This document shows, piece by piece, positions 5,795 through 26,522 of a DNA stretch of 64,000 bases. Below the pieces are notes generated by a model that saw only the letters and a program-made list of their open reading frames with translations, ran no database searches and was not told where the DNA came from. Position 1 is the stretch's first letter; the number at the start of each line of letters is the position of its first letter. The stretch covers positions 62,001 through 126,000 of the forward strand of contig NW_026251735.1 of NCBI RefSeq assembly GCF_025024155.1, read 5' to 3'. This DNA is from Gamsiella multidivaricata (Eukaryota > Mortierellomycota > Mortierellomycetes > Mortierellales > Mortierellaceae). Made by a program: the position numbers and the translations under genes.

Positions 5795-7579
5795 CAAGAA
5801 AGAGGGTGCGAAGCGTGGATTAGGCATGATGTGAATACATTCCTCGGTTACCCAAATTTCAATAGGCACACTTACGGAGACAGGTGCCAGTCCATTCCGT
5901 AATTATATATATCGAGAGAACAACGGCGCCCACGGCATCCAACCACCACCATCCCATAAACTGTCCAGCAACCGGGAACAGGGTCGAAAACACATTGAAG
6001 ACCACGTCATTTAAATGATCCTGCGCCAACGCCTGAACACTCGAGCTGTCTTTCATGGTCCTACACCACGCCCAGAGCGCAAATTTGATGAAGATATTGA
6101 GCCCTAGAAGCGACAAGATGATGATACCCAGATCCACAGGCTCATCTGCTCCGGCCAAGAGTCGTTCGAATGATTGGAGCATGACCTGCAAAAATGAAGT
6201 AACCATAACAGATGCAAAGACGATGATCCCCAAAGGCTCCATACGAGCTTTGCCGACGGGGTAGCGGTGTCCATCCGAGGTGTTGCTGCGGAGGCGGGCA
6301 GAGTACCAGATAATGGCGCCGCTCAGAAGATCCATAAGTGAGTCGATCATGGAGGCGAGAACTGCAAGAGAATCTGAAAATAGGACGGTCCAGATCTTGA
6401 TGATGACCAGGAAGACATTAGCCATAAAACTGACATTGATGGCCAGACTGACTGAATGTTTGTGTGCGTTTAAGGAGAATAAAGACAGTGTTCGCGTGAG
6501 ATAGAAGTATCCAGAGGACAGCATTTGAAGTTGATGAAGGAATAAACCAACTAGTGTACCTAATCTGGGCGAGGTCCTTTGCTTCCTAGTGAATCCTATC
6601 AGAGGCGTGCCCTCTTCTAAATCTCCTGTAGGTTCGTCAGAACCATGACCGCCATTGAGATGTCCGTTTGATCGTTTAGCCACATCCATAGGTTGTTCAG
6701 GAATAGAAGCAATTGTAGGCACATTGCTGGGCGTGGTCGTTCCAGATGTCGATCCGTAGGTCGCGATACTCTGATTATCTGATGCCTTGGCCACAGGAAG
6801 TAAGGAGTCCAGAGGCCGAAATGGAGGTAACTGTGGCAGTATCTGAGCTTTTGCCTGCTCTTCCGCCCGATGCTCCTTCAAGATCTCTTCCACCTCTGCA
6901 AACGAGTCCAGAAGACCATTCTGTTTCCATTAAAAAGGCAAGACAGTTGAGTAAGATAATTAGTCTACACCAAACACTAAGTGAGCTCTCTTTGCGCAAT
7001 AGACTGATGATCAAGATACATGTTGTGATGCTCATATCTCATCCATACCAGTGATTGATAGTACTCCTGTACTTGTTTGCCCTTCATGGCCGCGATTTCC
7101 TCCTCAGACTTGCGTGCCTCCTGAAAACTCTGTGCCGACAAAACCGGTCGCGGCGTAATTGCCTTGTAAAGCACACCTGACATCCTTCTCCTTCCACGCG
7201 AATGGGATCTAGGCTTTTCGCGTCCATTGGGACAAGAAGCGCATCTCACAAAGGATCCTGCAGGCCAATCCTGTCCGTGTCGACGACCAAACTGTTCCCC
7301 GATCGACAGCTCCGAGAACTCGTGAGTGTGAGACTCCAATGACGACGACTGCTGACAAGAAGAAAGCTCGTCGTATTGGATCGGTTCTGGAGATCTTACA
7401 ATGATTCTCGTCGTAGGCGCCGCCGTTGTGGTCAGTGTGGGTGAGGTTGACGGAGACGTATTGACGACAATGGTGTTGGAAGACCCCAGGTCTTCAATCG
7501 CCACGGGTTCGCTGCTGCCTTGCTGGCCACTGTTTGTCTTTCCACGTCCACGGCTGCGAGTGGGTTGCTGCTTAGACAT
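5461..7579 (-). CDS. Cation diffusion facilitator, manganese type
   Basis: Exons (minus) 7049–7579, 5876–6920 and 5461–5753. I also infer an in-frame 108-nt intron at 6452–6559 (GTACAC…TTCAG), which would join PRL to VSLAINVSF and give 586 residues. CDF proteins export divalent metal from cytosol to vacuole, Golgi or outside in exchange for protons. After a disordered Ser-rich N-terminus come QEYYQSLNGLLDSFAEVEEIL and a membrane domain of about six segments. The metal site has two DxxxD motifs (IDSLMD and DHLND), the signature of the Mn-CDF group rather than the HxxxD of zinc transporters. The cytosolic C-terminal domain (IDTVRAYYVGDGLFVEVDIVLP, ERAFVHVDY) is well conserved. The last 3' splice site follows a 40-nt A tract (see findings). 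Mn specificity is inferred from the motifs. Confidence 0.9.
5755..5794. repeat. Homopolymer T40 (A40 on the coding strand) inside an intron
   Basis: Forty consecutive T on the plus strand. In the CDF transporter, transcribed leftward, it is an A40 tract directly before the AG of the last 3' splice site, where a pyrimidine tract would be expected. Confidence 0.95.
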
Positions 7580-8182: not shown

Positions 8183-9184
8183 TTAGGCCTTGGTGGTCTT
8201 GACAGCCTTGTTGACGATCTCACGGCGCTATTAAACAATCAGAGTCGCAAACAATATCAGAACCAAAATGATCTCGAAACTCGCAATCGACTTTAAAAAA
8301 AACGAAAAAACAACTTACAAGAGCCTTGTACTTCTGGAGCTTGAAGCGGTCAAAGTCAGTGTTGGCGGAACGCTGAGCACGGGAAGCGATCTTCTTGGCC
8401 CAGGAGGTCTTGGCCCAGTTACCAGCGAGATCCTGCTTCTCAATGGCCTTCTTGAGGACGACCTGGCCAGCGTTGCGGGGAACCTTGACGACCAAGGGGG
8501 TCAAGGTCAAGCGACGGAAGGCATAAGCACCGCGGGCGATGCCGGTGGTGGGACCCTCGATGAGAGCCTAGTAAAGTGATAGAAAACGTAATAATTCGTT
8601 AGGATCACTTAGCTCCATAGCCTCTTTGGTTCCACAACAGATGATAGTGCTTCGTTCGAGTGTTGCTAGTCCCGCTCCTGATTCCTTCAGCTATACTTTA
8701 TATATCGCAGTATATAGCGATGAACTAAAGTGTGGTGCCTGTTTTGATTGTACTGGAAGGATTGATAGCGGCACAGAGTGCGTTGCAGCCAAAACGATCG
8801 GTTCAAGCTAATGAGTTGAATCAGCTTGCCGCAACTCATCCTGCTAGGCTGTTCAGTATGTCTGAATGCAGAAGCCTGTTCCTGCCATCGGACTTGATTC
8901 ATCTCTGGTCTGTTCCAGCATACGCAGTCAGTTGATAATACACCTGTTGAATATCCGTTCGTTGTATGCGAAACTGTTGCTCAACGCTGCCCTGCGGTTG
9001 ATATGACTAGGCTGCCCATGCTGGTTGTCCTGAGTAATTAAGGTGAAAATAGAGTCGAGAATTGGGAACATACGCGGTTGTGGTCAATGATATCGACAAT
9101 GACGGCGAGCTTGCCGGCATCGGGGCCATAGTTAACCATGACGACACGGCCGATCTCAACGACACGCTGGAAAGTAGGAATGCG
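8183..9184 (-). CDS. RPL14: 60S ribosomal protein eL14 (5' end incomplete)
   Basis: Coding exons on the minus strand: 9074–9184, 8319–8567 and 8183–8227. They read [20 protein letters not shown]…IVDIIDHNR, then [20 protein letters not shown]…[11 protein letters not shown]…[12 protein letters not shown], then [14 protein letters not shown] and stop. This is the KOW-type N-terminal barrel and basic C-terminal helix of eL14, a component of the large ribosomal subunit. All three exons are phase 0 with GT–AG borders. The exon at 9074 has no start codon. It is preceded by …TTTAATAG at 9185, with an in-frame alternative acceptor at 9166. The initiator ATG must therefore lie in a tiny upstream exon; ATG|GTGATA at 9526–9528 is one candidate, unproven. 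The 506-nt intron at 8568–9073 is long for this genome. Confidence 0.9.
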
Positions 9185-9998
9185 CTATTAAAGGATAACG
9201 TCGAGGTGGAGACAATTGAAGATAGGTTCGTTAAAATCGCTGTGCCGATACAGGTTTTCTTTCGAGGTGGGGTCGCTCCGTCTATCCTGATGAATAACAG
9301 CCTTGCTGATCTCGCAGTCTACTGATGAGTCCTGATGTTTTCCGGCAGATAACGAGCGATCTCTGGTTCCCAAGTGTAGATTCCTGTCCAGCACGTTATA
9401 AGATGTAGGGTTCTTCCTGATGGCTGTTCGCGCTAGCGGATCGGATGCACTCTTGCTGATCTCTCGCCTGAGTGCCGAGTAGTGCTATTGTGTCAGTTGA
9501 GGAATGCTTTCCAGTCGCCTATCACCATTGCAGTGTGTTCAAAAGCCTGCTACACCATGCTCTCAGCATGGGGCCCCCGCATCATCGTCCAAAAATGTTG
9601 CTTCTAGTCTCAATTGCTTCCGATTTCCTGGGAAATAGCCATCTGGCGAGTGAAGGGTTGCTCAACGATAATGATAGATCGATCGATGGATGTTGTTGGT
9701 CCCGTATGGATAGTGGATTCCTGGATGTCTCATGGATGCACACTGCAGGTCACATACAGCCATTTTGAATAGACTGGTAGAGGAGAGGGCGTATAGTCCT
9801 TCTCCGCCCAATTATTTTATTGAAAGATCAAAGTGGCTTGGTGCTCCGCTCCGTATCGAGGATTGGTGGCAATTCGCGTATACTTTCCATGGTGGAGATA
9901 TTTATTATGTACAACTCATCAAACCTATTGGGTATCATGCGTATGAAGGTACTGAAGAGAGAGACCCACTAACTGTCCATTTTTGGGGGAAAGACTTA
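9185..9998. other. eL14 5' region; first exon not resolved
   Basis: Should contain the first intron, the initiator exon and the promoter of eL14. Two ATG|GT candidates fit phase 0 on the minus strand (9526–9528 and 9556–9558), neither with a strong donor. I looked for C/D-box snoRNA motifs, which often sit in ribosomal protein introns, and saw none that convinced me. The left end is also the 3' flank of the repeat-peptide gene. Confidence 0.4.
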
Positions 9999-10652
9999 TT
10001 ACTTGTGCTGCTTGTGGTGAGGCGACTTCTTGGGCTTGATGTCCTGAGTTTTGAACAGCTCCCGCTTGCTGTTCTTCTTCTTCTGGCCCAAGTTCCAGGT
10101 CTTGCGGTTGCGACTGACCTTGCGGTGAAATGCCAGTTCGGTGTCCTCGTTCTTGATAGCACGCTTGATGTGCTTGCTGCAGGAAGAGAATGATTTCTTG
10201 TGATTCGCATAGTTCTTGCGGTGGAGCTCAAAATTCTCGATAGCACGCTTGTTGTACTTGCAAGAGGATGAAGACTTCATGTGGTGCGAATGGTTCTTGC
10301 GGTGAGGCTCGAGGGCGCGCTTACTTTGCTTATGGTGACTGTGGTTAGCCTTTTGGTGTTTGCCATGACTCTTCTTGCCATGGACTTTCTTTTTGTAAAG
10401 GGCAAGGTCGGGTACATTGGCTTTGACAGCAGGGACTTGGGGAGCGGTCAAAGCGGGCTTATGCAAGTCGCGGCGCTCCATCATTGATGAGCTCTTGCTG
10501 TGGCTATAGTCGGCCTTGCGATGGTGATTCTGCTGTTCGTGGATGCGGCGGGGCTCAAGGCGGAAGGCAGCCTGCTGTCCGTGGCGGACATCTGCAGCAG
10601 TCATAGTACCCATAATGGCAGTCGTCAACAGTGCTGAAAGAATGAAGCGCAT
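9999..10652 (-). CDS. Secreted Lys/His-rich repeat protein with Kex2-type cleavage sites
   Basis: Single exon, 217 residues, very basic. MRFILSALLTTAIMGTMTA is a clear signal peptide. The rest is a degenerate repeat of about 24–33 residues with the core HRK…H.KS.SS…KR followed by A-[LI] or E-L. Dibasic KR sites end the units at residues 111–112, 135–136, 163–164 and 196–197, and RR at 60–61 ends a similar unit nearer the N-terminus. Two units carry one Cys each in the same place (SSSSCKYNKR and SFSSCSKHIKR). Signal peptide plus spaced dibasic sites between similar units is the architecture of Kex2-processed repeat precursors, whose known fungal members give mating pheromones, hydrophobic repellents or toxins. 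I do not recognise the peptides themselves, and no function is assigned. A histidine-rich metal-binding or wall protein is the alternative. Confidence 0.75.
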   Translation of the reverse strand: MRFILSALLTTAIMGTMTAADVRHGQQAAFRLEPRRIHEQQNHHRKADYSHSKSSSMMERRDLHKPALTAPQVPAVKANVPDLALYKKKVHGKKSHGKHQKANHSHHKQSKRALEPHRKNHSHHMKSSSSCKYNKRAIENFELHRKNYANHKKSFSSCSKHIKRAIKNEDTELAFHRKVSRNRKTWNLGQKKKNSKRELFKTQDIKPKKSPHHKQHK

Positions 10653-11159
10653 GTTGGTCGTTCGTTAATTGTCGAGCAAATTGAGGTACAGGGGATACAG
10701 AGACCAAACTTGAGAGTAGAGATAGATTATGGTAGACAACTCACGTCCTTTATATACTTTATAAATACACTGGGCAGCACATCGCATATTGGCCTTGAAT
10801 AAATTACTGTAGTCCATCCTTGCTGTTTGTGTCTGCACCAACAAGAGAGCCAAAAGGTATGTGCGCGCGTGGCCGGCAAGGACTTATTTTCAGTCAAGAG
10901 AAGAATAAGAAAGGAGCCAGACGGTGTCAAAAATGAGATTTCTAGCGGATGTGGCAGGGGATGGGTAGCTTTGGAATATAGAGCGAGTTGATATTCCTCG
11001 CTTCCTTCTTATACCTACCCATGACCTAAGGGGGTTCACAAAGAGTTCTTAGTTTTCCTCATGTCCTCTCTCATCGAGCGGATAACATGCAAACACATTC
11101 CGAGTTTTCATAATTACGAGTCAATATCAGCGCGTTGGTGTCGGCGTTTATTTTCTATG
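10653..11159. other. Intergenic, repeat-peptide promoter and KCH 3' end
   Basis: Apart from the TATA box no coding signal is seen. Both flanking genes are transcribed leftward, so this is the promoter of the repeat-peptide gene and the 3' region of the KCH gene. Confidence 0.5.
10747..10756 (-). promoter_or_regulatory. TATA box of the repeat-peptide gene
   Basis: On the minus strand TATATAAAGG lies about 95 bp before the start codon at 10652. It is a strong match to the TATA consensus and suggests a regulated rather than constitutive promoter. Confidence 0.6.
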
Positions 11160-13499
11160 CTAGTGGTATGGGCGATAACTTGCGCCATTGACAACACTTC
11201 CCCTTCCTCCCTGCCGCCCTGTTGGTTGCGCTTGATATCCTCCATAAGGACTTAGTGGCGCGCCGCCGCGTTGACCAAGATCAGACATCATGACCGTCTC
11301 GCCGTAATTGGGAATATGTCCTTGCTGCAGAGGGTGGGGCCTCACTGCCCGAGGACCGTGGCCGCTCGCGACGCTTCCTTGATTCGATCCGCTGAGGACT
11401 GTGCTAGTGTCTGATGCTTGCCGCCGATGGCCTGGAAGCTGCGGTTTTGGTGGATACTGCGACGCAAGGCAACTACTGCTGAGGCTATAGGCGCCGTCAC
11501 TGATCTCGCTCCTGTCATCAGCATAGTCATAACGATGGTCCTGCCGCTGGAGATTACGATTGTGATAAGCCTGCTGATGGTTAGCCTGACGGAAAGGTCT
11601 CGTGTCACTATCGTCCTCTAAGGCTGGCGTATATGACCTCGGGCCCGGCGAGTACGATCTTGGAGGCGGAGATGGATGCTGGCGGCGATAAGGATCGTTG
11701 GGCAAAGGCCCATTCTTTCGCAAATTTGGAGATCCTGGAGCTATATAAGGCGACGCTGCAGTCATTCTCGGCGCTGATGAGGGTATAGGGGAACCTCGCG
11801 GTCCTTCTTCGATCAAGCCAATGTTGGGCAAAGTTGGCTTCTGTAGAGGCGTGTCACCGCCCTTGCCGCCCTTTGCGTTCTTGGAAGCCTCCTGTGTACG
11901 CTGCTTGACCTTTCTCTTGATGATCTCGTCAATACTATTAACAGGCGTTAACATGGGTCAGTTCTCGATGCGCGGCCAATGCTGCCTAAAAACACAAGTA
12001 TAAGATAAAAGAAGTATCGGCCTACCGTTTATCAATCTTGTGGCAACAAAATTCTTTCAGGTTGCCCTGGATGTGAATGACCAACGGAATATAGAGAATG
12101 ACTGCCACCAGCATAAGAAGAACAGAGATGATCCACAGGGTAAGTGTGAATGTCATCACTCCCATGGTAATGCGTGTCATCAGAGGAAAAGGGTAGTTCC
12201 AAAATGCAAGGTCAAGGTCATTGTTCTTGGTCCTGTTTTTGTTGACGACAGTGATAAGGATAATGCCGTTGATAACCTGTCTTGGTCCGTCCGCAAATAT
12301 GAGCCGCTTCCAACCTGTTCATATATAGTGTTTCATCGCAATGATTGCTTGTGAATATGCAGCCAATAAAGGACAAGACGAGCATATGAAAAACCAAGGC
12401 AGTGTCCAGTTGCATACCTCGGAAAGTGAAGAAGCAAAAGAACGCGACCTCATCGATGGTCTTTTTCGAGTTGTGAATCTTTTGGAACAGGCAAAAGTGG
12501 GCATAACTTTTGACCGCATAATATCGATAGGCAATCATGCTGGTGAAAGCATAGCTGATGTCGCGACTCTTAATGATTGCCGCAGCCTTTTTCATGTCCC
12601 ATGCCAGGAGAATAAACGAAAGAATAATACAGGCGGCGAAAATCCACTTGTAAATCTCGAACGAGATCTTGATGTCCTCTAGAGGAGACAACATAGTAAA
12701 TTACAAGCAGGGAGGTGTGTTGAGTATGCGGCTACTTCCCGCTGCTCGCGTGTTGTTGAGATTACCAAAGTATAATGGAGATAATAGAGGAGCTTACTGA
12801 ATGAAATCTGTCTATCTTGCACTCCGAGATTGGTCTGCCACGTTTTAGCGACGAGCAAGTTGACGGCTGTCCTATTTTCATTGAATCCATACGAGGGAAA
12901 GGTGTGTGAGCTATATGCGAGAACCACTGCTGATCCACATAGATGACAGACCTTTATCCTACCATAAATCGGCACAGTAAATAAGGATGCCCTTGATTAC
13001 GATGCCAAAGACAAGTGAGTACTTGAATTTCCTCCAGAGCGAGTTATCGACATAGTCGTCAACGTCAATGAAATCAAACTTGTGGTCCTCGACCTTTTGT
13101 CGCCGCCAATCGGCTATTGAAAGACGCAGGTTACGACAGTTAGTGGAAATGGTGAGTGCGATGGCTCCTGGTTTTTTTTTCGCAGTGGTAGCCGGATGGC
13201 CTTTGAAGATGGAAAGGGGTAGGGAACAAGGAGCTGGTGAATCAGGGATAGGGCTGCTTATTTTTTTGCTGTTTGAGAGGACGGGAGGGCAGATCGGGGT
13301 TAAATTGGGTAATTTAACATCGCCCATTTGTCTCCCTTCATTTATTGAGAAGGATGCAATTTAATGGTTGAATCCCCATTTCCATTTCGTCAGTGGTGTG
13401 TCCCATTATCTTTCCATCTAACGTATTCAATTGACCAACAAAGAAGAGAGGTCCATGAAACTCCAAGGATCACAGCGTGAACTTAAACATACTTGACAT
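11160..13499 (-). CDS. KCH1: KCH-family low-affinity potassium transporter
   Basis: Six exons on the minus strand: 13493–13499, 12963–13113, 12798–12871, 12418–12678, 12026–12314 and 11160–11934, giving 518 residues. The first exon holds only 7 coding bases (ATGTCAA), and phases agree at all five junctions. The start MSTDWRRQKVEDHKFDFIDV is followed by DDYVDNSLWRKFKYSLVFGI, matching the fungal KCH family (yeast Kch1 and Kch2/Prm6), plasma-membrane proteins that promote K+ influx, in yeast during the pheromone response. Four or five membrane segments follow, with IYKWIFAACIILSFILLAWD and FFTFRGWKRLIFADGPRQVI between them. The C-terminal 250 residues are Pro/Ser/Gly-rich and disordered. Transcription diverges from the PRM10 gene. 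Family assignment is by motif memory and could be checked against the KCH Pfam family. Confidence 0.85.
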
Positions 13500-15598
13500 G
13501 GTGCTCGAAATCTTTCTTGAACTCGACGGAAGAAATGCGAAAATGAATAATAGAAAGCGTGTTTGTATAATATAGATTGGATGAGAAGCAATGAGAGGAG
13601 GTGATGTCTGATATTGAGAACGGGATGTTGGATGAAAAAAAGGTCGTTATTTAGGGCAAATTGTCATTAGAAGCATTAGAAGAGAAGAGAAAGGGAAAAA
13701 GGGGTGTGCGTGTGTGAATGTGGATGGTGGTCTACAATGTACAATGTGATGCTGTCGTCTCTCTCTTTAACTGGGAGTGAGTGACCGAGGATGGGGAGGT
13801 AAGGTCAAGGACAGGGTAAAAAAAAAAGATAGAGAGAGAAAGAGGAGGGGATCCGTCGATAGTAGCTCAATGGATGGCTACGAGGACCTGGGACCAACAG
13901 AACGCCAAATAAAGTTAATTAAAATTGATTGAAAATTTTACGATCCATTGAGGACGAAGAGTATATCACGTTACCCAGCAGGCACTGATGCATCCTCACC
14001 ACCTGTCTGTATTCACAGGGCATACACAACACTACAGGCAAATGATGTGCGGTCCTCGTGTTTCACTTCGAAACGGGGTATTACGCTTGCCACAACAGCT
14101 TCGCCCACGCAATCAGTAGATCATCCCATGGTGCTCCGCTGGGCTAGTCGAATGGTATCGGTTCCCGCTTCCTCATAGGAGCAATGTCTGTGTCCACCAC
14201 GACGCATTCATTGACCCAAGCTATGAAATCAAAAAGGCCCTTGAAAGCAATTGACTTTCATGGTCGCACAATATCTTTTGTCTGCATCCCTCATGACAAA
14301 AAAAAAAAGAGAGAGGGGGAAATAGAGAAACTGAACAATGGATGCGAATGATGACATGATGCGTATGCTAAAGCCACAGTGCTCTTTTGACGATGCTTGC
14401 AATCCACGTACGCGCCGCAGATGCAGCACGTCTTAGCTTGTCTTGCTATCATCGTTAATCCTCTTGGCGTCTATCCAGCCCTCGGTTCCTCCCTCATCGT
14501 GCCGACGCTAAATTGTTTTTGTCATGAGTCTGGCCCAACCTCCCCTCAAAGCGAAACATGCAGAGGCCCGTGTTCCTCGCCCGCATTCAGTCACATTCCC
14601 ACGACAGGAACAAAACGCATAACGGTGTCTCCATAAGATGTACATGCGTAGTTCTGTCACTTGGTCCAGCATAGTGAAGGTGGCTGTTGCAGGTGGAATA
14701 AGGAACCATTACCGGGCGCCTTGATTGGTTCGTTCGGGGTCTGATGGGTACAAACTAGCCGGATCTGAAGGTAAATTGGGCTTGAAGTGGTCGGGAGGCG
14801 AAAAATCGCTGATGGACGAGATGTAGACACGACAGCCGAGACAAGCGATCGAGTGAGTGGGCCCTGAAGGGAGCTTTGGGCACATTCGTTGGCGGACAAT
14901 CCGTGGTTGAACATGAATGAGACGCCGTTGAGATTCAAATTATTATTTACTATTTAAATCTCCTTTGTGGGGTGCAGTAGTAACAGCAGTATGGGCGGTT
15001 CCTATTTTCTTTTTAATGGTCATTGAGCTGTTTCGGAGAAGCAAAGCGCATCAGCATACCAGCATCAGACAAACACATCGAGTCAAACATGATTACCACT
15101 AGAGTGGTAGTGGATGTCTCCGGTCGATATTTTTTATAAATAATAAATGGGGGAGGCCGTTCTGGGATCCGATCGCCACCCCAAATGTGCGACATACGTA
15201 CACAGCGAACGAATAGGCTAAAGAGTCCAGTTGAGATTTGAATAATGAACTATTTATTGGACTATCTTCATCATAGGCTGCACAGTCTTCCATCCTTCTG
15301 CCTCCTTCGATGGTTTCTACAACATTTTCCACTGAGTTGGGCCTGTGGCATATAAAAGAAGAAGAAAAACGGCCAATTGCCATTTTTTATTCTCATCCCA
15401 CTCTTTTCTTTTGTACCTTTTTTTTGTTTTGTTTGTGTGCTCTTATTTTTCACACCTTTAAATCCTTCTTTTTTTTTCTTTCTGTGTAGCACCTTCGACC
15501 TCAACGGCTCCCCACCCTTCCCCCTAATTTTTTTTCTCATCAAGGTGTGAGAAGACTCGACTCTCAAACCACACCCACAGCGACAGTAGAATACCAGC
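13500..15598. other. 2.1-kb divergent promoter region (KCH / PRM10)
   Basis: Shared upstream space of the KCH gene (minus) and the PRM10 gene (plus). Near 13560–13860 it is purine-rich, and from about 15350 to 15540 it has T-rich leader sequence before the PRM10 start. Short open frames show no domains, and I see no tRNA. Confidence 0.55.
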
Positions 15599-18470
15599 AT
15601 GAGCACTAATAACAGTTCGCCCAGCGGTACACCTCCATACCAGCCAAACATATCCTCAATCTCAACCTCATCCTCGCTCTATGTGCCCACTTCCAACCAG
15701 ATCCCCACACCCCCAACCATAACCATCAATCCGCCTTCCTTACCCCAACCGACCCTCACTACTATCAACGAAGCAGCCTCTAGGCCCGGTTCAAACAGAT
15801 ACAACCCGCCTGTGCCCAGCAGAATGACAGGCACATATTCCAGCAACAACAGTATTTACCACAACAACCTCGCTCCTACCCACAACGCACACGGACGTCG
15901 ACTCGGAACCAGCAGCGCCTCTAGCTCCCCTCCAGGAACACCTCCCAACGGCTTACGAGATTACTATCTGAATGTTGCTCTTCAACGCGCTCAGCACCGC
16001 TTTTACACACACGGAACTGGATCAGGGCCCAACTCTGCAAACAACTCGAGCACGAACCTGAGCCGGCCCAACATCTCTGTCGTAGTTCCCTCACAAAGCA
16101 AGTACCAGGAGGCCCGACGAGCGTACTCTGCAGACCAACTGAGTGTCCAGGAACCACAGATTACTGTCACCACACCAGGGGGATCCAATGAGACCGAGGA
16201 ACATGTAAAGACGCTGCAAAATGCGCTCAACAACTTGATTGCACAAGAAAGCAGAGCAGCCCCACATAATGACGATGACGATGCGGAGGATCCAGACACT
16301 GATGGACCCATCATGATGAAGGGCAACAAATCGAACTCAGTACCTGGAACTGTTTCGGCGGGTAGGAAGAGCGGCGTCTTGCTTACCCCTACAGTTCTGG
16401 CCAATCGAGAGGACCCCGAAAAGACGGCCGCCGGTACTATGAGCCATGGAATTGTGGGTTCGGACGTCACCCTCAGCGACAAGGACCAGAAAGAGAAGGA
16501 GAGGAAGGCGCACCGCAAGTCTCACAACCGGATCTCGCGGCTTTTTGGCCGCGATGTACCAGGCATTGGACACACCTCAGATCAGCACTATCACATGCAG
16601 GTCTCGCGCGCACCGGTGCAGCCCTCAAAAGCCGGTGTCCTCAGCAATCTGTTGAAGCTCCAGGACAATGGCCGCCATGCAAAGGTAACTATTATTAAGA
16701 ATGATCGCCGAGGCTGCCAGGGGTTGTGTACCATGCATATGTGCATGCGTGCCTGTGTGTTCATGCATCTAACAGTCGTTCCCATCAATTTCTCCACATA
16801 TCCCTCTGAATGTATAGACTCTTCATACACTATCGACAACAAAGCCGCGCAAGGAAAAGAAGAAACGACCCACGCTCTATACCCGGTCCGCTAACAACTC
16901 TACCACGTCTATCGCAAACGTCTTTGGCACCTACCCACCCCTGCCGACCATAGGATCTAGTACAGGCTTGGGTAACCTTGGCACGGCTACTCAGCGCAAT
17001 AGCTATGGCAACGGCAATGGCAACGGCAATGGCAATGGTAATGGATACGGACATCCACCTCAGCTGGACGGTAGCTTTGCGGGAGCATTCCCACAGGGTC
17101 ATTCGCCTTTGCACTCGCCCAACGGCTCACCTCGCGGCTCATTCTCCTACGACAATACCTTCTCGGCTACCTCAACCTTGCACTCGCTCTCGGCCGAGGA
17201 AAAGATGCGCATCACATTCGCAGTTGCAGACATCCTGCAGCGTCAGGACTATGTGCTGCGCCTGGCCAAGTCCATGATCAGATATGGCGCACCCTCACAT
17301 CGACTGGAGGATGCGATCGACCACACAGCCAGAACCCTGGAACTCAATCTGCAGTGCGTCTACTTGCCAAACGTGATGGTCATCGCCTTCACGGATTACG
17401 AGACCCATACCTCTGAAACGCACTTGCTCAAGTGCTCGGCAGGACTCGACATGAACAAATTTGCCCAAGTCCATCAAGTTCTGAAGATGGTGACACACTC
17501 CTCCATGCCCGTGGAGGAGGCCATCATGAAGCTGGATGCAATCAGCGCCGAAAAGGACATGTGGCCACGATGGGCCAACATCCTCTCATACGCGATGGCG
17601 TCCTTTTGCACCGCTACCATGTTCTTCAAAGGCAGCTGGACGGATGCCGGTGTCTCATTGATGCTCGGAACCTTTGTTGGTCTGATGAGTTGGTTGTCGG
17701 AAAAGGTGCCCAGTTACTCACATATTTGCGAGGTCACTATGTCGGTGGTTGTGGCCTTTATCGCGGAGGCCATGCACAATCAAGTGTGCCGAAGCTCCGT
17801 CAAGATGGCGGGTATCGTTATGCTGCTGCCTGGATACACGATCACCTGTGCGATTCTGGAACTCAGCTCGCGACAGATGATTTCAGGATCCGTTCGTTTA
17901 TTCTACGCGATTGTCTTCTCACTACTGCTGGGATACGGTTTGACCATCGGCGCCTCGCTCTGGAATCTGATTGACCCGTCCAGTCTTCCAGCGGCCGTAA
18001 CAGGAGTCTGCCCAGAGACACTCGATGCCAAATGGAACGTCCTCTTTGTGCCGGTGTTTGCGATTGCGCTCAACATCTACCTGAAGGCCCATCCCCGTCA
18101 ATGGGTCCTGGCGACAATCCTGTCGATCCTCGGGTATATGGTCTCATATTCGACATCGACCTGGGCTGGGGCCCGAACCGAGGTGTCGTCAGCGTTGGCT
18201 TCTTTCTCGATCGGATTCTGTGGAAATATCTACCAGCGTGTGACCCACCAACTTACGTTTCAGGCGGTTGTGTGCGCGGTCTTCTTCTTGGTCCCGGGAA
18301 GTTTAGGTCTGAAGGGCGCAATGGCCTTGTTCACGGACGACATGGCAGGAGGTGTCAACTTTGCGCTGCAAATGGTCATTACAGCGATTGCGATCAGTGT
18401 CGGTCTCTTCGCTTCTGCGTTGGTTGTCTACCCCATGGGCAAGTCTCGGTCTGCTCAAATGACCTTTTAA
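15599..18470 (+). CDS. PRM10: PRM10/ThrE-family membrane protein
   Basis: Exons 15599–16684 and 16818–18470 (phase 0) give 912 residues. The first ~530 residues are disordered and rich in Ser, Thr, Pro and Asn, ending in an (Asn-Gly)n stretch. From about residue 540 comes the conserved soluble ThrE part: AEEKMRITFAVADILQRQDY, then YGAPSHRLEDAIDHTARTL and LPNVMVIAFTDYETHTSET. About ten membrane segments follow, including ILSYAMASFCTATMFF, VVVAFIAEA and AGIVMLLPGYTITCAILEL. Bacterial ThrE exports threonine. Yeast Prm10 is a pheromone-regulated protein of the same family with no settled substrate. Transport of an amino acid or a similar small solute is therefore only inference. The long disordered N-terminus is fungal-specific and may be regulatory. 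Only one intron interrupts a large gene. Confidence 0.88.
17007..17044 (+). repeat. GGCAAC/GGCAAT repeat coding for (Gly-Asn)n
   Basis: In-frame hexamer repeat in the PRM10 gene, coding alternating Gly and Asn. The unit varies between AAC and AAT, so the repeat is old or selected at protein level rather than a fresh expansion. Confidence 0.85.
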
Positions 18471-22929: not shown

Positions 22930-24939
22930 CTATGCGAATGCAGTGCACCGATCCAACGGCGTCACATGCGTGCCAGGCACAACCCAGCTGCGGATTGTAA
23001 TGTACAGCGTAAACACCATCACTGCGGCCCCAAAGATGCCGAGCGCAATATCTAACACCTTGGCCCTCATCGTTGTCGCACAAGCCTTGTAATGGAACAT
23101 CGCTGGGAAGATGAAACACAGAGGCATGCAGGCGACGCTGCCGACGAACGATACAAACTTGTCCAGATTAGGTCCACCAATCCCGAACGCTAAGAGCGCA
23201 CAGCAAATAATCAGGACGATCCGAAGAGCATTCTTCTGCATCTTGACCTTGAAGAACTGGCCGCCAGATTTATCGCCGAAAATACCGTACTCGAATATAC
23301 GTGAGGCTGGCGAGAGCATCAGCGGGACGGAGAGGATGATGGCGAGGGAATAAAGGATTTCGACGGTGATGGTCATACCGTCGCGGATGGGTAGGTTCAG
23401 GAGTACGATCGTCTGGATATCGCTACCAAAACTTGCGTAGCAGAGGGCACCGATACTGCCAAAAATCAAGGCGACGATGGTCATGGTGATGGCGAGCACG
23501 CGAGGAAATTTTTCTGGCTCGGCCATGGACTCTGTGATAGGAATGACTATTGACGATGGAATTATATGGTATTATTGTCAGCAAGGAAAGGACGCGTTCA
23601 GTACAGTACACACAAATACTAGCACGAAGGAATAAAATACGTACTCAGGCCGATGCCTTCAAATGAAAAGACTGCCGTGCCGATGAACAGCGCAAAGTCA
23701 TCCTTGTTAAATAGCCCAATGTTGGGTCCTACGCCACGATGGACCAGGCTGTTGATGGAGTAGTACCAGAGATAGACGATTCCAAAGATGATAAACAGGT
23801 TGGCGAGCATGCTTGGCACAGACAGGACAGCCATGCGGCGGATCAGGACCAAGGGAATCAGCACCACCAATGGGATTAGAATATAATACTTTTCGGAAAT
23901 CCCATCGAACGTGCATTTAGTGAAGGTCTGGACGACAGCGAACAGGTTCTCGGATACAAAGATCAAGTAGGCGCAGACGAAGCCGATTTGTGAGATAGCC
24001 ACTGAGATCAGGACCGCCAAACGCATGTACTTTCCAAAAAGGACTGCACCCATGTCCTGAAAGTTCTCGCGGACAACGAGACGCACTTTGACGAGCAGCA
24101 GGAAAGCAACGCAGCATATTAACGCCACGGCTGCCAACATCAAGCAGGAGAACAAGATCCCTAGAGAAAAAAAAAAGAGTGGTCTGTGATGAGGATGCGG
24201 CGCTTGTTTTCTATTGATATGCATTGGCCGAAGTAACCCGGGAGTCCTTACCTCCGTTCTTGAAAGCACTGGGAAGGAAGAGGACACCTGTGCCAACGAA
24301 CGCCTTTCCGAGCAAGAAACTAGCCTTGAGCGCCGAGACATTTCCTCGAGGGGCCGCATGCTGGTCTAAGCCTTGTCCAATATCCTTGAGAGTAAAAGAG
24401 CTAGTTGTCGAAGAGTGTTGCAGTAGCATTTCTGGCCTAGTCGAGTCCATTGTCTGCTTCTCACTCGAGCCGTCAGTAGAGAGCCCTCCAGCATACGAAG
24501 ACTTGCGCGAAACCCTGCCATGTACACCCTTCTCTGCTGCCGAGAAACCATCTTCGCCCACGTATGAGTTCCTCCGGGATCGGGTGCCTCCGTAGTTGTC
24601 ATACATGGAAGTGTACTCGGAGTTGGCATGGATCAGCCATGAGACTGGACGGGAACTCGGCCGAGAATGCGAGTGTGAGTTATGTCTGGAGATGCGCGAG
24701 CGTGATGTTGCCCTAGAGCCGGGTGCGGAATGGGGGCTAGTAGCGCCGCTGTGAGCGTGAGGCCCTGTACGGCCACGTTGGTGGTGGTGATGGCGATGTG
24801 GTTGCTGTTGCTGTGGCAGAAAGGTAAGGTTTTTATCGACACTTGGGGATGAGCTTATGTGGACTTGAGAAGGTGCTTGTGGAGCGGCGAGATGTGATCC
24901 ATCCTGTGGTGGTTGTTGCGTTGATTGTAGCTCACCCAT
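22930..24939 (-). CDS. Vacuolar amino acid transporter, AVT3/AVT4-like (AAAP family)
   Basis: Exons on the minus strand 24252–24939, 23645–24160 and 22930–23546 give 606 residues. The first ~200 residues are disordered and rich in His, Ser, Gln and Arg (a His-rich stretch near 48–56), as in fungal AVT proteins whose N-termini are cytosolic and phosphorylated. The transporter domain starts at GNVSALKASFLLGKAFVGTG, the usual Aa_trans opening, and continues through about eleven membrane segments, with AVFSFEGIGLIIPITESMAEPEKFP at the conserved TM5–6 region and FGIGGPNLDKFVSFVGSVAC near the end. AVT3/4 proteins export neutral amino acids from the vacuole with protons. The export direction here is inference. 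All junctions are phase 1. Confidence 0.9.
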
Positions 24940-26522
24940 GTTAGTTGTTTTTTTGTTTTTCTTTCGCGTACAGGTTGATAAAATACTAATAGTAGAAGGA
25001 GATCAGAAGGAAGAGGAGGATAGAGGTTTGAGAAGGGGCCTGCACAAATGGCGACTTTATATATGTGAAGAAATTAAAAGAGTCCGTACCCATACCGATG
25101 CAAGGCGATCAAGACATGTAATGGTATTGCGAACCAGGATTGTCGGTGGTTGGGACAATGACCGCATTCCATTCCTAAAAAGGAATTGGATCTCCACTCA
25201 CTTGGCTGTTGCCATAACGCGCGGTACCTGTGTGTTTGACTCTGTAGGCTCTGTGCCCTACAGGAATACTACTCTACCGGGGCTCCGATTTGGCTGATTA
25301 CTGTGCTCCTCCTTCGACCCCTTGCAGTAGACTGACCCAATGCCCTAGGCGCCCTTTTGGCAAGGGATGGAGAGTAGAGCACAAGGGCCTGTATTGGCTT
25401 ATTAAAGGGTTCCTGGACTAGAACTGGGAGCGATGAAGCATTCATGTACCCGCAACAGATATCCAAATGTTTCGCTGTAGGAGGTATAGTAGCGTAGCTC
25501 TGACAACTGGGGCTCCCAAAGAAAAACATCGGACCAAAGACCTCGACTACTTTTCCGTCTTCATTCCTTATACGACCATATTCTGACGTCGCTTTGCTCC
25601 TTTTGTCGAAGGAGTGATGACGGGGTCTCATCTCCCATGGCCCTTTGGCCCAAATTTGACATGCACGGGGGCCAATGGCGAAATATATGATAGTATAAGT
25701 AGTTCTGATCCCTGACTCGGTTGCATGGGTCGAGACATGATCCCTGTTGAAATCCATACCGCAGCTAGCCATCTTCATCACTCCTTTGGTGTTTTGGGAG
25801 CCATAGTGTGTGGAGTAATAACCACTTTTGGGATGTAAAACAAATGCTCATAGATCCCTTGTCCAAATACAGCGCGGCAAGACATTTGTTCTGCTCTTCC
25901 AGACAGATGGACCCCATCAAGTCGATCCTGCTGCCTTTTTTGGCAGATCGATTGCTGGCTAGCGCTTCCAAGAATCATCCCTTCATGATCGCCCCTTTAT
26001 CCCCCTCGAAGAATTTGTGTCGAACACAGGTAGTCCATAATTCCTCTTGAGCCCTGTCAAGTATATTGACATTGTTGCTGCAACAGGTTGAAACGAGAAG
26101 AAAACGCAAGGGAAATACGGCCTATTAGGTGGATACCGCCTCGCCAACCTATTCTTGTTCGCTGGATGCGCGCAAAGAGTGATGACGATCTATTTCAAGA
26201 ACCGCCGATCCAAGAGTGCAAAATTCGTACTTCAATTACGTATGTAGATTGCAGAGTTGCTGACGATTGGTCAGAGGGAAGGCATCTCTCAAAAGTGCCT
26301 TAATGGAACTTTGCGCATCCATGTCAACTAGCCAGTGTATGATCCGCACTGCAGGCGAACATTGACGTAGAGGCGCGGACAGCTTTAGAGAACACACTTG
26401 TACCCTACCCTGGAAACTGGGGTGCATTACGTCACACAGCTCCAGAGGTAAATACCAATTTCCTATTGGTTACCCCATAGCTGGGATCTGAAGCGGTCGT
26501 ACTTGTTCCTGAGAAAGAGGTA
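24940..26522. other. Gene-poor, decayed region
   Basis: Promoter of the amino acid transporter at the left, then about 1.3 kb with overlapping interrupted minus-strand frames (listed separately at 25269–25978) that look like remnants of something once coding. It borders directly on the dead pogo-type transposon. Confidence 0.5.
25269..25978 (-). pseudogene. Unrecognised, interrupted coding remnant
   Basis: One minus-strand frame runs 170 residues (25269–25781). Two others just upstream run about 65 residues (to 25971 and 25978) and are out of phase with it. Composition is protein-like (for example GRIRNEDGKVVEVFGPMFFF and HLDICCGYMNASSLPVLVQE), but no domain is recognised. No GT–AG intron obviously joins the pieces, so a broken gene or old repeat copy is my best reading. 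It may also be chance. Confidence 0.25.

Follow-up and report, generated by a model that had tools for sequence, protein, structure and literature searches.

An open reading frame in the genome of Gamsiella multidivaricata probably encodes a Kex2-type repeat precursor of the kind known as KEPs, belonging to a family that has so far been seen only in Mortierellaceae; this grading takes in the proposed functional steps as well. Judged from the sequences of its relatives, the precursor is very probably cut at the borders of its repeat units. The gene lies on the minus strand of the window (the whole 64,000-nucleotide stretch of DNA that was analysed), and the plus strand at the same positions contains stops. 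The gene and its parts are as follows.

9999–10652, minus strand: precursor gene, a single open frame of 217 amino acids running uninterrupted from ATG to stop, with 28 homologues besides itself
10593–10652, minus strand: putative signal peptide, residues 1–20, the sole strong hydrophobic stretch and conserved
10545–10592, minus strand: conserved leader peptide DVRHGQQAAFRLEPRR, residues 21–36, from an alignment of 15 sequences
10470–10544, minus strand: type-A-like unit, residues 37–61, ending in RR (KQRRDL in relatives), from the family alignment
10317–10469, minus strand: variable spacer with a degenerate type-A end KANHSHHKQSKR, residues 62–112, from the alignment
10245–10316, minus strand: type-A unit ALEPHRKNHSHHMKSSSSCKYN-KR, residues 113–136, from the scan for repeats and sites
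10161–10244, minus strand: type-A unit AIENFELHRKNYANHKKSFSSCSKHI-KR, residues 137–164, from the same scan
10062–10160, minus strand: type-B unit with NEDTELAFHRKVSRNRKT..LG, ending in KR, residues 165–197 (32 type-B matches in 21 of the 29 family proteins)
10002–10061, minus strand: tail beginning ELFKTQDIK, residues 198–217, from the alignment
10751–10763, minus strand: two adjacent TATA-box-like sites, 99–111 bases upstream of the ATG, by consensus match only

The first-pass annotation had described a secreted protein of 217 residues; the length and position were confirmed, and the signal peptide is indicated by hydropathy and conservation, which serve as proxies. Hydropathy (KD17) reaches 1.67 at residues 3–19, and the best value past residue 25 is 0.44. 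Signal peptide cleavage would fall before D21, within a stretch in which A20, D21, G25, Q26, and Q27 are nearly invariant and L32 is invariant across the 15 aligned sequences, and R60 and R61 are each conserved at 90% or more in 21 sequences. The AlphaFold model of the protein is weak (mean pLDDT 53.8) and contains helices only at residues 2–18 and 171–188, the latter a predicted type-B helix with mean pLDDT 70 at 171–180 and 55 at 181–190. A Pfam profile search with the protein gave no match at E 10 or better, and a profile search against solved structures gave no relative at E 1. At the DNA level, the gene holds a single 15-base tandem array of 2.1 copies and thus gives no sign of recent unit duplication at this place.

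All five dibasic sites listed in the first-pass annotation (RR 60–61 and KR 111–112, 135–136, 163–164, and 196–197) are present at those residues, and a further one, RR 35–36, had been overlooked; most relatives lack it, the 15-sequence consensus reading RH. A single Cys indeed stands close to the border in each of the adjacent units 113–136 and 137–164. The description of five like units did not hold, as only these two are clear type-A units. The segment 37–61 is type-A-like, 62–112 is a long spacer whose end resembles type A, and 165–197 is of a different type, B, which also has an HRK core. The number of dibasic pairs was rejected as evidence for a precursor, since it equals what composition predicts: the window protein has six KR and RR pairs where 4.0 are expected (p 0.19), and not one of the 28 sequences exceeded composition at p 0.05 (lowest p 0.0525). 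The internal repeat is likewise borderline, with a best self-segment of 73 against a shuffle mean of 42.4 (sd 7.7, maximum 75, 100 shuffles). Among nine proteins, self-repeat exceeded every shuffle in six (P0002, P0006, P0014, P0015, P0017, and the duplicate copy L002 in the same genome), although the best segment in P0014 and L002 is another Lys- or His-rich repeat rather than the type-A array, and it did not in P0001, P0004, and P0013. Taken alone, the window protein would make a weak observation. Because its counts lie near chance, the pattern rests on the family, namely on the register of the sites and on their presence between neighbouring cores, and it is the relatives that decide.

Three similarity searches assembled a family of 29 proteins including the window protein. 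The homologue search picks up proteins of similar length that have exact words in common, and two of its rounds scored 7995 and 7993 candidates. An organism name is attached to 27 of the 28 homologues, all from Mortierellaceae, and the named genera number eight: Mortierella, Dissophora, Podila, Haplosporangium, Linnemannia, Entomortierella, Modicella, and Lunasporangiospora. The membership of P0027 is weak (E 0.035). As far as searched, the family would thus be limited to Mortierellaceae. In the genome (37.5 Mb, 180 contigs) the window occupies C101:62001–126000. A search of the whole genome, in which diverged copies could be missed, placed the precursor at two positions. The six Podila models, each of them marked partial, start or stop within the repeats, which may stem from assembly breaks in long arrays. 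Literature searches returned no description of the precursor family among the matches listed, and the string "Mortierell" is absent from the main texts of PMC6339444 and PMC7329392, whose supplements may list the family unnamed. The family therefore appears to be new as far as searched, while belonging to a kind already known.

Searching for homologues and aligning their unit borders, as had been recommended, yielded the 28 relatives and showed that repeat and dibasic site keep a common register. Across 28 sequences, KR or RR stands 3–9 residues ahead of 48 of the 90 HRK-type cores (type B included), compared with a mean of 9.7 and a maximum of 18 in 1000 shuffles; between neighbouring type-A cores, such a site occurs in 34 of 36 intervals in 18 proteins, compared with a null mean of 10.3 and a maximum of 18, but because the sequences are related and the duplicated units are not independent, both shuffle nulls overstate significance and are only indicative. 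The distance from site to core is exactly four residues in 28 cores and exactly seven in 18. When only type-A cores are considered, a site lies within eight residues before the core in 47 of 64 cases and within 36 residues after it in 52 of 57. Since the nulls are no more than indicative, the diverged array of P0017, in which LH.K and KR are the sole invariant residues over six units, is the better argument for conserved borders.

These observations bear on a different reading, in which the protein remains uncut, or is cleaved at RR 60–61 alone, and acts as a long disordered polycation of the cell wall, the other dibasic pairs being by-products of a Lys/Arg-rich repeat. In favour of that reading, the KR and RR counts agree with composition, the mature window protein has a pI of 10.7 and a charge of about +38 at pH 7, RR 60–61 is among the most conserved sites, and the homologue P0025 is devoid of sites. 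The first-pass annotation had held that homologues keeping the protein without its dibasic sites would speak against processing. The borders proved to be mostly kept, with three departures: the partial P0025 retains the leader and a type-B-like stretch with no KR or RR at all, P0028 has SDR where a KR border is expected, and P0006 lacks the site in one of three intervals, the intervals without a site between type-A cores being one each in P0006 and P0028. In nine of the 28 sequences (P0002, P0005, P0013, P0016, P0018, P0019, P0020, P0025, and P0027), no core has a site 3–9 residues ahead; the four M. alpina proteins, which have type-B cores, are all among these. Nevertheless, site placement is far from random, and in the diverged units of P0017 KR persists while almost all other positions change, and we regard an uncut polycation as improbable beside a precursor processed at its unit borders.

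Two kinds of unit can be distinguished in the family. Type A follows HRK..H..K.SSS, often with C.KH and then KR, and is present in one to seven copies in the 23 proteins having the pattern; P0015 has seven, P0017 six, and P0022 three, and the Podila fragment P0008 has three near-identical ones. Of the 21 proteins that contain type B (DTELAFHRKISRNRKT..LG), 16 have a single copy and P0003 has three, while those of M. alpina have two to four each. In the M. alpina proteins P0002, P0016, P0018, and P0020 the patterns used detected no type-A core, and the type-B DTELAFHRKISRNRKT is repeated instead. Both invariant columns of the family alignment fall inside type B. Cleavage would also fall inside ten of the 32 type-B units, which contain an internal KR or RR; nine of these ten are from M. 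alpina. The peptides are hydrophilic, with GRAVY values of −1.0 to −2.0.

The composition of the type-A units had led to two suggestions, that one Cys per peptide could allow dimers and that the His-rich character could mean metal binding or antimicrobial action. Dimers and metal binding are weakened as family functions by the fact that neither feature is conserved family-wide: of 50 units, 20 contain Cys and 31 contain a cluster of His (HH or HSH). In a set of 35 type-A units, 16 of 18 Cys lie 3–4 residues before the border. Histatins are short, basic, His-rich, and disordered peptides that are not known to come from a repeat precursor, and histatin-like type-A peptides that kill competitors or starve them of metal would be in keeping with the pair of type-A peptides from the window protein, which carry 3–4 His each and a net charge of about +3 at pH 7, rising to +5 to +6 at pH 5.5. 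In contrast to histatins, however, His richness is unconserved in this family, the cluster being found in one of six units of P0017 and in none of three of P0003, and the M. alpina proteins show no type-A core with the patterns applied. An amphipathic helix is absent too: the moment of the type-B helix is 0.24 against a shuffle mean of 0.27, and that of the consensus is 0.08 against 0.29, which weakens the idea of a membrane-lytic helix, a candidate left unsupported. We consider a histatin-like role rather unlikely. A frame for a CDF cation-efflux transporter (PF01545) was also noted at 5859–6893, near the His-rich precursor gene.

The conservation of type B, with the two invariant columns of the family inside it, would be expected if it were the active ligand of a self-signalling or mating system analogous to ascomycete alpha-factor. 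Alpha-factor precursors are similar in being secreted and in holding repeated peptides between KR sites, and in P0014 and P0017, and only there, AAPA just after the KR preceding type B fits the XA/XP trimming signature of STE13. The precursor gene also adjoins a gene of the KCH potassium channel family, which is pheromone-regulated in yeast. Unlike alpha-factor, none of 35 type-A units begins with XA or XP after the cut, and genome searches for STE2 and STE3, run without a positive control, gave no match. Furthermore, the sexual pheromones of Mucoromycotina are apocarotenoids, according to PMC6339444. A mating or self-signalling peptide is judged unlikely, somewhat more so than a histatin-like one.

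As to the processing machinery, most fungi have one kexin gene. Two kexin-like genes were found in tandem on contig C113 (C113:185001–194000), each with subtilase and P-domain pieces; by pattern search both show the HGTRC and GTSA motifs, and one shows the Asp motif. The sequence evidence as a whole, comprising in-register dibasic sites, a variable number of units, and the two kexin-like genes, speaks for the Kex2-type repeat precursor proposed at the outset.

In the definition given in PMC6339444, a KEP carries a signal peptide but lacks any further membrane segment, is cut at KR/RR into at least four fragments, has three or more similar fragments lying between sites, and consists of repeats over at least 15% of the protein. 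By the hydropathy and conservation proxies, the window protein has a signal peptide and is otherwise free of membrane segments, and it would be cut at KR/RR into seven fragments; units 113–164 alone account for 52 of its 217 residues, and kexin-like genes are present in the genome as the tandem pair. The window protein itself offers two clear type-A units, one type-A-like unit, and a distant one; three or more similar fragments are found in the relatives P0015, P0017, and P0022. Like KEPs, the family has an N-terminal hydrophobic segment, units split by KR/RR in variable number, and peptides of about 20–30 residues; unlike most of them, it has two unit types per precursor, a different one being repeated in M. 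alpina. Two unit types were recorded in 77 of 1193 KEPs (Le Marquer 2019, PMC6339444). The first-pass annotation had mentioned such precursors as known in Dikarya; they occur more widely, being reported from Mucoromycota, Chytridiomycota, and Zoopagomycota as well (PMC6339444; Umemura 2020, PMC7329392).

The ustiloxin precursors share the KEP architecture (PMC6339444), and so a dikaritin-type RiPP, a cyclic peptide with cross-linked Cys or aromatic residues, has to be weighed. Such a product is very improbable here, as UstYa (PF11807/DUF3328) was unmatched in a genome search run without a positive control, and the residues that would be linked are scarce or inconstant, with six Tyr in 35 type-A units in addition to the patchy Cys noted above. 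Two other systems offer a comparison. Diatom silaffins are secreted polycations whose Lys/Ser-rich repeats terminate in basic cleavage sites, and they are likened to the precursor by these features rather than by sequence homology. Rep1 of Ustilago is a Kex2 repeat precursor of wall-associated peptides; its repellents are hydrophobic, in contrast to the hydrophilic peptides described here.

The genes on either side of the precursor gene lie on the same strand.

11160–13360, minus strand: fungal potassium channel gene (KCH) split into several pieces, upstream neighbour (PF16944, 9e-29 for 12218–12694)
8223–9184, minus strand: RPL14 ribosomal protein gene with at least two exons, downstream neighbour (PF01929, 4.5e-23 for 8220–8510)

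The frame at 11160–11954 would be the tail of KCH, in view of its position and the like arrangement on contig C107. A block consisting of RPL14, the precursor, KCH, an unnamed gene (15590–16891), and ThrE spans 8223–18470 of the window and is repeated in the same order at C107:121896–137044 of the same genome. Identity between the two copies is 96% for the RPL14 exon, 62–90% for the KCH pieces, 68% for ThrE, and 55% over 80 residues for the precursor. A larger duplication may underlie the C107 block; another matching gene, at 22933–25002 of the window, was observed out of order at C107:104–106 kb. KCH matches elsewhere were compared at C6 and C138 (C95, C94, and C1 were left out), and those two regions share only KCH with the window. 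For the precursor pair, dN is 0.34 and dS 1.66 over 163 codons, from which the duplicate appears to be coding and under constraint, subject to the caveats of saturation and of a low-complexity alignment; the RPL14 exon pair gives dN 0.016 and dS 0.39. The duplicate precursor (L002, 1078–1722) has a long HHK/HHE run, two KR, one RR, and no type-B unit, and one TATA-box-like site at −94 (consensus match only).

The same gene order is revealed in two more species by what are probably mis-joined gene models. The M. polycephala model P0028 maps in order to the frame at 11163–11954 (59% over 143 residues), the precursor, and RPL14, and the L. zychae model P0023 spans the precursor and runs into RPL14, its RPL14 part matching both window RPL14 exons.

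With regard to mechanism, the signal peptide would route the precursor into the secretory pathway, where kexin would cut after KR/RR, as the observed register of sites and repeat suggests, and a carboxypeptidase, assumed by analogy with other fungi, would trim the basic residues. Several short, basic, mostly disordered peptides of types A and B would then leave the cell, type A varying between species in number and sequence, and type B forming a well-conserved short predicted helix. What these peptides do is the weakest step of the explanation. Tentatively, type A could act as a polycation under loose constraint, attaching to anionic polymers found at the wall of the hypha or on microbes nearby; with similar reserve, type B could be a specific conserved ligand of a putative surface partner. 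A literature search on polyphosphate binding by His repeats returned nothing usable among the matches listed. The functional alternatives discussed above and the precursor reading are not mutually exclusive. A more speculative proposal, which we regard as a long shot, is that the locus beside KCH holds an exchangeable core, most lineages multiplying the His/Ser unit and M. alpina the helical unit, with type B as a lineage-specific extracellular ligand and the linkage to KCH reflecting a shared pathway (peptide-triggered potassium uptake or a hyphal response).

KEPs are common in fungi and few have known functions; peptides from several mushroom KEPs have been detected, and kep knock-outs had no detectable phenotype (Vogt 2022, PMC9769878), which calls for caution on function. 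KEPs of early-diverging fungi have been thinly studied. The present family is found in eight named genera of Mortierellaceae, its gene neighbourhood is conserved where it can be read, and within one precursor one repeat unit can stand in place of another. Together these features open the way to comparison and peptide tests in soil fungi that can be cultured, M. alpina among them.
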